DNA from: Clostridium sp.
Lineage (GTDB): Bacteria; Bacillota; Clostridia; Clostridiales; Clostridiaceae
Reading direction: 5' to 3'
Length of the DNA: 64,000 nucleotides
NCBI RefSeq assembly: GCF_022482905.1
Contig: NZ_JAKVOI010000001.1
Location: 682,001 to 746,000, forward strand
The position numbers were made by a program, and so were the translations under genes. The notes below the pieces were generated by a model, which was not told the DNA's origin, did no database searches, and was given only the letters and a program-made list of their open reading frames with translations. Numbering within the stretch: the first letter of the stretch is position 1; the number at the start of each line of letters is the position of its first letter. Positions 35,730-40,412 of the stretch are shown piece after piece.

Positions 35730-35824
35730 GATTTATTAAAAGATAATTAATTTAAATTAATCATATTGGGTTTAAATAGAAAAGAAGATACTGTATAATT
35801 AACTTATGAGGGGAGATGATTTCA

Positions 35825-37516
35825 ATGAATTTTAAGTTAAACGATGAACAGAATGCAATTAAAAATACTGTGAGGGAATTTGCTGAGACGAAGATACAGC
35901 CTATTGCTTTCCAGCTTGATGAAGAAAATATGTTTCCAGAAAAAATTGTAGAAGAAATGGGACGATTGTCTCTTATGGGGATTCCATATCCGGCAAAATA
36001 TGGCGGTGCAGGTAAGGATGTGCTGAGTTATGCTATTGCTGTGGAGGAATTATCACGAATAGATGCAGGTGTGGGTGTTATTTTATCTGCACATGTTTCC
36101 CTGGGGTCATGGCCGATTATGGAGTTTGGGACAGAAGCTCAAAAAGAAAAATATCTTGTACCACTGGCCTCCGGGAAGAAAATTGCCGCTTTTGGTCTGA
36201 CTGAAGACAATGCCGGAAGTGATGCCGGTGGAACCGAGACTACAGCTGTTCTTGAAGGTGACCACTATGTTCTTAACGGTTCAAAAGTTTTCATAACAAA
36301 TGGTGGCTATGCAGATACTTATGTTATATTTGCAGTTACAACTCCCGGAATAGGTACAAAGGGAATCAGTGCATTTATAGTTGAGAAAGGCTGGAAAGGA
36401 TTCACTTTTGGAACACATTATAACAAGATGGGAATCAGATCTTCTGCTACTGCAGAATTGCTTTTTCACAATGTAGAAGTTCCAAAGGAAAACCTTCTTG
36501 GGAAAGAAGGAGAAGGTTTTAAAATTGCCATGCAGACCTTGGAAGGCGGACGAATTGGTATTGCGGCCCAGGCGCTTGGAATTGCACAGGGAGCTTATGA
36601 GAAGGCACTTGATTATGCTAAAAGGAGAATTCAATTTGGAAAACCTATTGCGAGACAACAGGCTGTTGCATTCAAGCTTGCGGATATGGCAACCAAAATC
36701 CGTGCAGCAAGGTTTATGGTGTACAGTGCAGCTGAATTAAAAGAGGAACATACATCATATGGAAAAGAATCTGCCATGGCGAAATTATATGCTTCGGATA
36801 TTTGTCTTGAGGTTGTCAATGATGCTGTACAGATATTCGGAGGATCAGGATACATAAAAGGATTTGACGTTGAACGTATGTATCGTGATGCTAAAATATG
36901 TACGATATATGAAGGTACGAATGAAATTCAAAAATTGGTTGTTTCAAACTTTATTATAGGAAGACCCAAGAAAAAGCAGCCTGAAAAAGCAGCCAAGACA
37001 GGTCCGAAGGCTATAACCGGAGACCGCAAAAAGGTTGTTATAAAAGAAGGATCGCCAGAAGAAAGAGTAGCTGAATTCCTGAAATATCTTCAAAATGAAA
37101 ATATCAAGGTTAAATCGGATTCAACTGTAGATGGAAGTATAAGCAGTGCTGATATAGTTTGCAGTGCAGGACGGGGATTTGCTTCAAAGGAGGATCTGCC
37201 TATAATACAAAAATTGGCTGAAACCATGGGAGCGGCAGTCGGGTGCTCAAGACCTGTTGCAGAGCAGAACAAATGGATGCCGCTTGATCGTTTTGTAGGT
37301 ATATCCGGTCAGAAATTCAAGGGGTCATTATACATTGCTGTAGGTATATCCGGCCAGATTCAGCATCTGGGTGGTATTCGTGATGCAGGTATAATTGCTG
37401 CCATCAACATTGATGAAAACGCCCCGATATTTGCCCAGGCGGATTATGGCATTGTAGGTGATTTGTATGAAATTGTGCCTCTCCTTACCAAAGCTTTGAC
37501 GGATAAAGGATTATAA
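35825..37516 (+). CDS. Acyl-CoA dehydrogenase fused to an ETF-alpha FAD-binding domain
   Basis: 563 residues. Residues 1-378 are a complete short-chain acyl-CoA dehydrogenase, with FGLTEDNAGSDAGGTET and the catalytic Glu in IYEGTNEIQKL. After a Lys-rich linker (about 380-405) the rest matches domain II of electron-transfer flavoprotein alpha, with SRPVAEQNKWMPLDRFVG and AVGISGQIQHLGGIRDAG. The fusion would carry two flavins in one chain. No etfB/etfA genes adjoin it. GGGGAG lies nine bases before ATG 35825. It may oxidise or reduce acyl-CoA with an intramolecular electron acceptor; direction is not known. Confidence 0.88.
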   Translation: MNFKLNDEQNAIKNTVREFAETKIQPIAFQLDEENMFPEKIVEEMGRLSLMGIPYPAKYGGAGKDVLSYAIAVEELSRIDAGVGVILSAHVSLGSWPIMEFGTEAQKEKYLVPLASGKKIAAFGLTEDNAGSDAGGTETTAVLEGDHYVLNGSKVFITNGGYADTYVIFAVTTPGIGTKGISAFIVEKGWKGFTFGTHYNKMGIRSSATAELLFHNVEVPKENLLGKEGEGFKIAMQTLEGGRIGIAAQALGIAQGAYEKALDYAKRRIQFGKPIARQQAVAFKLADMATKIRAARFMVYSAAELKEEHTSYGKESAMAKLYASDICLEVVNDAVQIFGGSGYIKGFDVERMYRDAKICTIYEGTNEIQKLVVSNFIIGRPKKKQPEKAAKTGPKAITGDRKKVVIKEGSPEERVAEFLKYLQNENIKVKSDSTVDGSISSADIVCSAGRGFASKEDLPIIQKLAETMGAAVGCSRPVAEQNKWMPLDRFVGISGQKFKGSLYIAVGISGQIQHLGGIRDAGIIAAINIDENAPIFAQADYGIVGDLYEIVPLLTKALTDKGL

Positions 37517-37573: not shown

Positions 37574-38956
37574 TCAATTGTTCTCTTTATTCAGGAGGCT
37601 GTTTTTCATTCCATACAGAAAATAAATGGCAAGGCCTGCACCTGTCCAGATCAGAAATCTTATCCAGGTAACTGATGGCAGACTTATCATAAGATATATA
37701 CAGAACAATATTGTAAGTATTGGAGTAAATGGTACACCGGGACACCTGAATTTTCTCTGTATATCAGGCATTGTTTTTCTCAGGACAATGATACCGGCAG
37801 ATACGAACAAAAATGCCGACAGCGTACCAATATTGCAAAGCTCTATTATTATATTAAGCGGGAAGAAACCACATATGAGAGCCGTTATACATCCTGTCAC
37901 TATAGTACAAATACCTGGAGTTCTGTGGCTTTCATTTATACTGGAAAAGACTTTGGGAAGCAGTCCGTCTCTTGCCATCACCATAAATATTCTGACCTGC
38001 CCGTATAGTATTACGAGGATAGTGGAAATCATTCCTATGACGGCACCCGTACCGACCAATGCGGAACCCCAGTTGATGCCTATTTTTGCTAATGCTCCTG
38101 GTAGAGCATTGTTTACATCTATGTATTTAAACGGAACCATTCCTGTAAGTACACATGCTACAGCTATGTACAGTATGATTGTAAGTCCCAGGCATATAGC
38201 CAGTCCGATTGGCACATCTCTATATGGATTTGATGTTTCCTCTGCTGCAGTGGATATAGAATCAAATCCTATAAAAGCAAAAAATATAATTGCAGCACCC
38301 GACATTATTCCATTTATGCCATAAGGGGCAAAAGGATGATAGTTTACAGGATTTATATGTGTCACACCAATGAATATAAAGACCAGTATTACAAATATTT
38401 TTATAAATACTATTATTGTATTTATTTTACTACTTTGTGTTACACCTATGTATAATATCCACGTTATTATGGCTACAATTAACATTGACGGTAGATCCAC
38501 AATGCCGCCTGAAAATGGAGAATGTGTCAGTTGTTCCGGTAAATTGACACCACCTGATTTCAAAAGATCCACGAAGGTACTTGACCATCCTGAGGCAACT
38601 GCTGATCCTGAAACGAGATATTCAAGCATTAGATTCCATCCAATAATCCAGGCAATGATTTCACCAAATGCCACGTAACAATAAGAGTAGGTACTTCCTG
38701 CAACAGGAAACATGGTTGCAAGTTCCGAATAGGTGAGTGCACAGAGAGCACATGTCACAGCGGCAACTATAAATGATATTATGACTGCGGGACCGGCCAG
38801 CTTGGCACCTTGTCCGGTAGAAACAAAAACACCCGTACCGACTACCGAACCAATACCGAGGCATGCGAGATCAATGTAGTTCAATTCCTTTTTAAGATGA
38901 CTTTTTTTAATGGAAGTTTTAAAATCATCTATACTTTTTTTCCTAAATAAGTTCAT
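37574..38956 (-). CDS. APC-family amino acid permease (YfnA/CAT-like)
   Basis: 460 residues, twelve membrane helices. The helix-1 unwinding motif is LGIGSVVGTGVFVSTGQGAK; helix 6 has FFAFIGFDSISTAAEET, both hallmarks of cationic/branched amino acid permeases. AGGGG lies before the ATG. It has its own consensus-like promoter (39020-39048), which matters because a SAM riboswitch lies upstream on the same strand. Substrate could include methionine but cannot be assigned. Confidence 0.88.
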   Translation of the reverse strand: MNLFRKKSIDDFKTSIKKSHLKKELNYIDLACLGIGSVVGTGVFVSTGQGAKLAGPAVIISFIVAAVTCALCALTYSELATMFPVAGSTYSYCYVAFGEIIAWIIGWNLMLEYLVSGSAVASGWSSTFVDLLKSGGVNLPEQLTHSPFSGGIVDLPSMLIVAIITWILYIGVTQSSKINTIIVFIKIFVILVFIFIGVTHINPVNYHPFAPYGINGIMSGAAIIFFAFIGFDSISTAAEETSNPYRDVPIGLAICLGLTIILYIAVACVLTGMVPFKYIDVNNALPGALAKIGINWGSALVGTGAVIGMISTILVILYGQVRIFMVMARDGLLPKVFSSINESHRTPGICTIVTGCITALICGFFPLNIIIELCNIGTLSAFLFVSAGIIVLRKTMPDIQRKFRCPGVPFTPILTILFCIYLMISLPSVTWIRFLIWTGAGLAIYFLYGMKNSLLNKENN

Positions 38957-39074: not shown

Positions 39075-39103
39075 TTGACATTAACAAAATAATCTAATAA
39101 AAT
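39075..39103 (+). promoter_or_regulatory. Promoter of the Cys-rich / Met-rich gene unit
   Basis: TTGACA (39075-39080), 17-bp spacer, TAAAAT (39098-39103), 50 bp before the Cys-rich peptide. It is divergent from the permease promoter. Confidence 0.7.
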
Positions 39104-39152: not shown

Positions 39153-39257
39153 ATGTTAATGGAAAAAATGTATATGGAAAAAGAAAATAATTGTAGTTGC
39201 TGTATGTGTTGTTGTGAATTGTTTGTTGACTGTAGTAGTATTTGTATTTTCTTATAA
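39153..39257 (+). CDS. 34-residue Cys-rich peptide
   Basis: A complete small frame with GGAGG nine bases before its ATG and a good promoter upstream. Of 34 residues eight are Cys, clustered as CSCCMCCC near the middle, with Met enriched in the first ten residues. The composition resembles that of the larger Met/Cys-rich protein encoded 320 bp downstream, whose C-terminus is also a Cys run. Metal binding or thiol storage is possible. No known family recognised. Confidence 0.6.
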   Translation: MLMEKMYMEKENNCSCCMCCCELFVDCSSICIFL

Positions 39258-39299
39258 ATATGAATATTGCTGCAGTTTTTGCGCTTGAATTAAAACGGC

Positions 39300-39532
39300 T
39301 GACTAGAAAAACTAGAGGCCTAACGATATAAAGAGTATGATGTTATTGACTAGAAAAACTAGAGATAAACTTACTGGATGTGCCAGAGGTAAAGTTATAC
39401 TTGTGATTATGAAAATATAATAAACAGTATAATTCTATAGTGATTGAAATAAACTAGTCGTGAATTGTACTGGAAAGTAAAATGGAAAGTGAAAGTATAA
39501 CGGGTAAGCTGACTGGATATACCAGAGGTAAG
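39300..39532 (+). repeat. Four copies of a 17-base hairpin motif in the leader of the Met-rich gene
   Basis: Copies at 39302-39318, 39349-39365, 39373-39389 and 39512-39528 fit ACTRGANNNNCYAGAGG. The stem is CUAG/CUAG in the first two and CUGG/CCAG in the last two, a compensated A-U to G-C change, with variable loops. The first two are part of an identical 18-mer. In one frame each copy also reads L-T-(R/G)-x-(T/A)-R, so a coding origin is possible. The 320-bp stretch 39258-39578 holds nothing else I can name. Confidence 0.6.
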
Positions 39533-39578
39533 AACTATTTATACTTCAAACAAATTAAATTTGTAGGAGGAATAAAAA

Positions 39579-40037
39579 ATGGAAATGACAAAAATGAACA
39601 TGATGATGGGAAAGAGAATGATGATGAACAATAATATGGGTATGGATATGTCGATGCCTATGAATCAGATGAACATGATGATGATCCCACGTGCAACCAT
39701 GAAGATGGAAAAATGCGAAAATGGAATGAAAATGATGTGCATGACTAAAGATGAAACTGCGGCTGCAATGATGCAGAACCTGTGCTCTATGTTAAATGGC
39801 GGAATGACAAGCGTATGCATGATGATGAACGGAATGAAAATGATGGAATGCAATATGATGATGGGAATGTGCAAATGCGAAATGACCATGGACGGTATGA
39901 TGATTACATGGACTAGTGGAGATGAAATGATGTGCAACATGATCCAAAAATGCTGTGACTGTATGATGAAAATGATGGAATGCGGCTACACTGCAGTAAT
40001 GTGTATGAATAATACACCGGTTTGCTGTTGTTGTTAA
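39579..40037 (+). CDS. Met- and Cys-rich protein, 152 aa
   Basis: Counted directly, 51 of 152 residues are Met and 17 are Cys. The first 35 residues are almost only Met, Asn, Lys and Gly; residues 36-150 look like a compact domain (IPRATMKMEKCENGMKMMCM onward) in which hydrophobic positions are filled by Met, and the chain ends in a run of four Cys. AGGAGGA lies nine bases before the ATG, so translation should be strong. There is no signal peptide. Copper/silver binding through Met and Cys, or a reservoir of sulphur amino acids, are the obvious ideas; neither is proven. A terminator follows at 40104, and a SAM riboswitch points at it from the other strand. Confidence 0.85.
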   Translation: MEMTKMNMMMGKRMMMNNNMGMDMSMPMNQMNMMMIPRATMKMEKCENGMKMMCMTKDETAAAMMQNLCSMLNGGMTSVCMMMNGMKMMECNMMMGMCKCEMTMDGMMITWTSGDEMMCNMIQKCCDCMMKMMECGYTAVMCMNNTPVCCCC

Positions 40038-40103: not shown

Positions 40104-40140
40104 ATGGCAAAGTATTGGCAGATACTTTGCCATCTTTTTT
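40104..40140 (+). terminator. Terminator of the Met/Cys-rich gene
   Basis: ATGGCAAAGTAT (40104-40115) pairs perfectly with ATACTTTGCCAT (40122-40133) and is followed by CTTTTTTT on the plus strand only. On the minus strand no T tract follows, so it should not stop antisense transcription. Confidence 0.92.
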
Positions 40141-40189
40141 TATCAAAAAACAACAGCAAACTTAAAACTAAATAAATTGCAAATTAAAA

Positions 40190-40219
40190 AGTGCTATCTC
40201 CATATAAGGAAATAGCACT
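40190..40219 (-). terminator. Intrinsic terminator of the SAM riboswitch
   Basis: On the minus strand AGTGCTATTTCC and GGAGATAGCACT form a 12-bp stem (one U-G pair) followed by TTTTTAATT. The 5' arm contains CCTTAT, which can pair with ATAAGG at the 3' side of riboswitch P1, giving a mutually exclusive antiterminator. Confidence 0.88.
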
Positions 40220-40256
40220 AAATACCCGTACCAATAAAAGTATTATTACTAATATC

Positions 40257-40364
40257 CTTATCTGTCAGGAATAATATCCTGCAGGAATTGACACCACTGC
40301 ATTCTAATGAAAAATGCTGGTTGTCGGGTTTCATCGGGCCAGTCCCTCTACCTCTCTTGATAAG
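40257..40364 (-). promoter_or_regulatory. SAM-I (S-box) riboswitch aptamer
   Basis: Read on the minus strand: P1 arm CTTATC (40364-40359), then AAGAGAGGTAGAGGGACTGG, CCCGATGAAACCCGACAACC, a variable P3 hairpin, GGTGTCAATTCCTGCAGG and the closing P1 arm GATAAG (40262-40257). These are the conserved core blocks of the S-box in order. SAM binding stabilises P1 and favours the terminator at 40190. No gene in the same direction follows before the permease at 38956, which has its own promoter; the RNA would instead run antisense through the Met/Cys-rich gene. Confidence 0.93.
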
Positions 40365-40383
40365 TTATTTTGTTTATGAACTG

Positions 40384-40412
40384 ATTATATAATAATTATT
40401 TTATAATGTCAA
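40384..40412 (-). promoter_or_regulatory. Consensus promoter of the SAM riboswitch
   Basis: On the minus strand TTGACA (40412-40407), 17-bp spacer, TATAAT (40389-40384): a perfect sigma-A consensus, about 20 bp upstream of riboswitch P1. This argues for strong, regulated-by-termination transcription toward the Met/Cys-rich gene. Confidence 0.85.

Follow-up and report, generated by a model that had tools for sequence, protein, structure and literature searches.

What does a riboswitch control when no gene follows it? In the window, i.e., the whole stretch of 64,000 nucleotides of Clostridium sp. that was analysed, the first-pass annotation had described a minus-strand S-box with no minus-strand gene behind it for about 1.2 kb, transcribed toward the 3′ end of a plus-strand gene for a protein rich in methionine and cysteine, and had proposed that it governs this gene through antisense RNA. 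The S-box RNA comprises three elements.

40384-40412, minus strand: promoter of the S-box RNA, TTGACA-17-TATAAT, 0 mismatches to consensus
40255-40366, minus strand: SAM-I riboswitch aptamer (S-box), RF00162, 88.0 bits
40186-40219, minus strand: S-box terminator and T run; hairpin 40219-40190 with a short T run after it, dG −18.6 kcal/mol

The sigma-A promoter, the S-box core, and the terminator with a competing antiterminator, all claimed in the first-pass annotation, held up on inspection. The RF00162 match covers the full model (positions 1-108) at 88.0 bits against a gathering score of 44.4, and it is the sole Rfam match at gathering score within the window. The 3′ strand of P1 (ATAAGGA, 40261-40255) is complementary to TCCTTAT in the terminator (40210-40204; duplex −7.9), and the antiterminator segment of this genome folds at −13.5. 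By score and platform the match is a SAM-I riboswitch, and SAM binding is predicted. This genome (G000, 3.57 Mb) carries 24 S-boxes. For 23, an ORF of 70 aa or more on the same strand starts at the aptamer end or at most ∼280 nt past it. The S-box studied here is unique among the 24, its first such ORF being a shadow ORF at ∼320 nt. The gene-free interval was found as claimed: between the S-box and the permease gene (from 38956), the only listed minus-strand ORF of at least 60 aa is a 91-aa frame (39665-39940) within the Met-rich gene. We took this frame to be a shadow of the ATG-rich gene rather than a gene; the extent of such shadow frames varies among homologues, and by eye this one has no ribosome site. 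The S-box thus has the placement of an antisense-acting riboswitch, lying 3′ of a gene, being transcribed toward it, and having no gene of its own close behind.

The gene that would be met on read-through, and the terminator that closes it, are as follows.

39579-40037, plus strand: Met/Cys-rich protein gene, 152 aa, the proposed antisense target (ORF list, homologue search, dN/dS)
40106-40140, plus strand: terminator of the Met-rich gene, hairpin from 40106

The composition claimed for the protein (152 residues, 34% Met, 11% Cys) agrees with our count of 51 Met (33.6%) and 17 Cys (11.2%), so that Met plus Cys make up ∼45% of it. The protein matched nothing in Pfam (E 0.001) or NCBIfam (E 1). 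A family search found the gene in 7 of 206 genomes, and it is full-length in five, namely G000, G004, and G008 and, in another genus, G147 and G148, the last of which has it twice in tandem plus a 3′ fragment. The G003 gene is shortened and by eye lacks a ribosome site, yet retains an open frame of 91 aa, and that of C. tyrobutyricum (G012, L061) is broken by an internal stop and, by eye, has lost its start. Differences among the intact homologues of G000, G004, and G008 fall mainly at third positions (7, 10, and 44 changes at codon positions 1, 2, and 3 between G000 and G004, over 151 codons), with dN of 0.05-0.10, dS of 1.3-2.2, and dN/dS of 0.03-0.05. The protein is under purifying selection, and this ratio together with the five intact copies counters the notion that the gene is a recent insertion. 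We infer that it serves as a sulphur sink or reserve, i.e., that it has a storage role; copper binding would be an alternative role. The Met-rich seed storage proteins of plants share its very high methionine content; the bacterial protein differs in being Cys-rich as well, and its storage role is putative.

Read in the minus-strand direction, the sense terminator by eye lacks a T tract, as had been claimed, and comparable sense hairpins in G004 and G008 apparently lack one too (also by eye). Just 3′ of this terminator, at window 40149-40161, AACAACAGCAAAC repeats in reverse complement the last part of the coding sequence (40020-40032); an alignment of five loci, including some that have lost the S-box, shows ten of its bases unchanged throughout.

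At high SAM, the S-box transcript would stop at its terminator after ∼190 nt. At low SAM, the antiterminator would form and polymerase would continue into the Met-rich gene, across its 3′ end and then its body, yielding RNA complementary to its mRNA. Such RNA would reduce the mRNA through transcription collision, RNA pairing, or both, so that a sulphur-costly protein would be made only when SAM is plentiful. We infer the read-through, as well as the sign and size of its effect on the Met-rich gene. That the S-box is an antisense-acting SAM riboswitch for this gene is in our judgement probable because its platform is intact and its promoter matches consensus, because it alone of the 24 S-boxes lacks a close same-strand gene, because the protein it faces is under purifying selection, and because its conservation, described next, follows the gene. 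If this is true, the bacterium gates a sink or store of sulphur amino acids by SAM via antisense RNA.

All three genus members whose Met-rich gene is intact have a convergent S-box, lying 217 nt past the stop codon in G000, about 252 nt in G004, and 234 nt in G008, whereas neither damaged locus (G003, C. tyrobutyricum) has one and none occurs within ∼5 kb of the intact gene in G147 or G148. Within the genus, the arrangement is kept with the target rather than with a neighbour. What surrounds it varies, G000 having a permease, G004 a plus-strand gene, and G008 another gene behind the S-box. By eye, we take the G004 gene to resemble a thioredoxin-domain protein and the G008 gene to be chemotaxis-receptor-like. 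Both the persistence of the S-box despite these flanks and its absence from the damaged copies argue for the antisense reading, as does the fact that G000, G004, and G008 share the aptamer, the promoter (at most 1 mismatch in G004 and G008), and the competition between P1 and terminator, although the terminator stem has changed to another paired sequence.

Several findings count against the antisense reading. The intact genes of G147 and G148 do without an S-box, which makes the S-box a lineage-specific input, and the arrangement occurs in three genomes only; because G003 and G004 are close relatives with identical neighbours, the S-box losses may represent few events. The shortened G003 frame is still open, and in G004 and G008 the segments excised for folding give terminators that are weak (−6.2 and −7.3) relative to the antiterminators (−12.2 and −11.7). 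The original interpretation is partly supported. Its refuting condition on genome comparison, a Met-rich gene recently inserted between the permease and an S-box that normally precedes it, did not hold (see below). The S-box is, however, specific to one lineage, and the sense leader has a separate sulphur-linked control that the first-pass annotation did not mention.

Andre et al. (2008) reportedly described S-box antisense control of ubiG-mccBA in Clostridium acetobutylicum. The precedent, which had been invoked for this locus and lends it further support, is indeed described in two papers (PMC2940859, PMC9943018), in which the S-box lies behind the gene. In both systems an S-box behind a sulphur gene is transcribed toward it with repression expected at low SAM, and a second, cysteine-linked control sits in the sense leader. 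They differ in target, which there consists of enzymes converting Met to Cys and here is a protein of 45% Met plus Cys with no Pfam or NCBIfam match, so our locus is not an operon of the ubiG-mccBA type; they differ also in the leader, which there is a Cys T-box and here a Cys-run peptide attenuator with a hairpin array. Similarly, pocR of Listeria is subject to antisense control by a B12 riboswitch 3′ of the gene (PMC9943018), likewise a 3′ antisense riboswitch permitting its gene only when ligand is plentiful, with a different ligand and a different type of target. Supplementary tables with 292 proposed cases accompany that paper. Among the papers listed by searches of a partial literature, with species names and supplementary tables outside it, there was none on this locus, the hairpin described below, or a bacterial Met-rich sulphur store, and no description of a sulphur-amino-acid sink or store as the target of an antisense riboswitch. 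Antisense S-boxes are thus already known from ubiG, and it is this target and its leader that look new.

The sense leader contains the following elements.

39075-39103, plus strand: promoter of the Met-rich transcript, TTGACA-17-TAAAAT (from sequence)
39153-39257, plus strand: leader peptide MLMEKMYMEKENNCSCCMCCCELFVDCSSICIFL, 34 residues with the run CSCCMCCC; its ORF ends inside the leader terminator
39229-39280, plus strand: leader intrinsic terminator (by folding), overlapped by the leader peptide ORF
39294-39323, plus strand: leader array hairpin, copy 1 (model R1, 40.4 bits)
39341-39370, plus strand: leader array hairpin, copy 2 (R1, 40.7 bits)
39374-39386, plus strand: core of a further hairpin copy, seen by eye and not among the R1 matches
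39504-39533, plus strand: leader array hairpin, copy 3 (R1, 34.6 bits)

We folded eight leaders: five from genus members, each ahead of an intact or decayed Met-rich gene; one from G148; and two without a protein gene. All eight have a terminator hairpin, located via a hand-made list of T-run patterns, and six have a Met- or Cys-rich leader peptide, none being found in the G004 and G003 leaders. The peptide ORF ends within the hairpin, shortly before it, or runs through it (G148, 89 residues); in G147 a similar Cys-run ORF passes through the leader terminator by eye. Because translation enters the terminator itself, a good supply of Cys should favour read-through, and the leader would thus be a second input, ample charged tRNA-Cys giving read-through and shortage giving termination, the sign of this response being presumed from the layout. 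The leader holds a second sulphur-linked control system, present in both genera, and carries a sulphur-linked RNA element that is apparently undescribed.

The array hairpin is a 30-nt element with a lower stem, a UGA/AG internal loop, CURG paired with CYAG, and an ANNNA loop. Across 31 aligned sites, 85.3% of cells pair versus 76.1 in shuffles (0 of 500 as high), seven of nine pairs have both partners altered, and covariation scores 0.391 versus 0.224 (0 of 500), with slid registers at 0.03-0.11. The pattern GACTRGANNNACYAGAGG has 20 exact matches across 13 genomes (8 with a match), and its reversed control has none. At E 0.1, model R1 recovers the hairpin from 11 of the 13 genus genomes; at E 0.001, it does so from 46 of the 200 family genomes, representing 13 of 46 genera. 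Since R1 was built partly from sites that it later matched (those of the window and the exact-pattern matches), those matches are not independent. In Rfam, the hairpin had no match at gathering score in the window, and the leader hairpins drew none even with the E limit relaxed to 10. The hairpin loci are window 39294-39533, L092-L121, and L132-L150.

Outside the Met-rich leader, the hairpin is mostly coupled to a terminator-like fold. Of 26 R1 matches in G000, 22 were listed and four left out; setting aside the three that lie in the Met-rich leader leaves the 19 considered here. At 18 of these 19, a terminator-like fold follows, its 5′ arm starting from the hairpin AG. The same test is positive at 61 of 400 positions drawn at random from the window and at 21 of 152 after shifting, and at −14 kcal/mol or better the respective counts are 16 of 19, 25 of 400, and 10 of 152. 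The hairpin and the terminator-like fold share a strand and are mutually exclusive, which is the layout of an antiterminator. Moreover, 7 of the 22 listed hairpins start 48-82 nt past a same-strand S-box (random placement, mean 0.02). Downstream of the G000 hairpins are genes for a SAM synthetase, an NMT1-type binding protein, and a Cys/Met PLP enzyme; three nitrogenase-component-1-like proteins; NifH-like and FeMo-co-type proteins; and a glutamine-synthetase-type protein, permeases, two cell-wall-binding proteins, and others. The nitrogenase-like set presumably recalls methylthio-alkane reductase. The hairpin thus looks like an antiterminator element serving sulphur genes, apparently not described before, and would be widespread in the sulphur metabolism of clostridia, standing behind S-boxes and before nitrogenase-like genes. 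We rejected HutP (PF09021) as its binder; it occurs in 122 of 200 genomes, yet is missing from the hairpin-rich G000, G008, and C. tyrobutyricum.

The hairpins of the Met-rich leader differ from the rest. In 30 loci (L092-L121), a terminator-like fold overlaps the hairpin at 25 of 25 sites outside Met-rich leaders and stand-alone arrays and at 0 of 5 inside them. The Met-rich leader of G147 has ten R1 matches and 8.3 copies of a 42-nt repeat with one hairpin each (L125:585-931), and ∼1 kb of other sequence separates it from the gene. A leader peptide, terminator, and hairpin array also occur without a protein gene in G001 (L066:1300-1700) and, convergent with metK, in C. tyrobutyricum (L061:5890-6330); these gene-less arrays are candidate decoy RNAs. 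Separately, by eye, L122 and L123 (G147 and G148) hold gene-less units of two hairpins with promoter and terminator beside an ACT-domain-like gene.

These findings suggest another view of the locus, in which the leader is the main control of the Met-rich gene, its array is a decoy (sponge) for a putative hairpin-binding antitermination factor, and the S-box is a minor modifier. The array hairpin is presumably different from the ANTAR type of EutX. The logic is nonetheless that of EutX/Rli55, in which a terminator-less binding site (PMC5821096) on a metabolite-controlled RNA titrates an antiterminator protein; in both cases terminator-less hairpins ride on a metabolite-controlled RNA while the same hairpins with terminators head target genes, the differences being another hairpin, a binder that here is hypothetical, and an array that lies mostly on an mRNA leader. 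By this analogy, the Met-rich leader may be a sponge for such a factor. However, the binder is only hypothetical, HutP being excluded by its distribution, the Met-rich protein is itself under strong selection, and a single leader hairpin is left in G003; we therefore regard primary control by the leader as a real possibility that falls short of being probable. More tentative still, and in our opinion rather doubtful, is the idea of an undescribed circuit of sulphur economy with this locus as its hub. In such a circuit the hairpin would be the antiterminator site of the putative factor across a sulphur-scavenging regulon, the leader array would be a decoy made only when Cys (sensed through the leader peptide) and SAM (so that S-box RNA does not oppose it) are plentiful, and the same transcript would store surplus sulphur in the protein; scarcity would halt both store and decoy, thereby switching scavenging on. 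The hairpin and its arrays are less expected than the S-box and may be more important.

The antisense reading must also be weighed against the S-box being a functionless remnant of a gene that was lost or moved. A 72-aa protein is encoded behind a normally oriented S-box in G000, G004, G008, G147, and G148 and, as a broken copy, in C. tyrobutyricum (the G003 copy has none); in G003, G004, and G008, no more than 3 kb separates its gene from the Met-rich one. S-boxes are thus common in this neighbourhood, as the S-box-led gene near the locus in G004 and G008 indicates, and the Met-rich gene does without one in G147 and G148. However, promoter, aptamer, and platform have stayed intact in all three species while the terminator stem diverged, making a remnant unlikely.

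The 72-aa protein, which has no family match above cut-off, has homologues in 7 of 200 genomes, exactly those that have the Met-rich gene, a co-occurrence that spans two clades and is uncorrected for descent. The two proteins may be partners. Should each S-box act as predicted, SAM would control their genes oppositely, which would suit store and release. One S-box-led copy lies at L018:1752-1970, and in L085/L088 the S-box heads the 72-aa gene, adjoining a Met-rich 3′ fragment. With 7 of 200 genomes against 46 of 200 for the hairpin, the protein was rejected as a general hairpin binder.

Trans-acting SAM riboswitch RNAs are known from Listeria, and a strong promoter with no gene behind it would suit a terminated S-box RNA that acts as a small RNA in trans, with read-through over the gene playing no role. 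Because the position and orientation of the S-box at the Met-rich gene are kept in three differently flanked genomes and lost with the gene, we consider this quite improbable. Finally, that the S-box serves the permease (37574-38956, minus strand) through a 1.2-kb leader, with the Met-rich gene between them by accident, is hardly credible: although this is the first minus-strand gene downstream and encodes an amino-acid permease, nine permease loci from other genomes, of which six hold orthologues with 78-81% identity, all lack an S-box within 1.5 kb, an absence that in turn favours the antisense reading, and S-box and Met-rich gene occur together in G004, yet with plus-strand ORFs beyond, and in G008, where the contig ends ∼400 nt further. 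Elsewhere in the window, a single ORF (35816-37516) fuses an acyl-CoA dehydrogenase with an electron-transfer-flavoprotein alpha FAD-binding domain.
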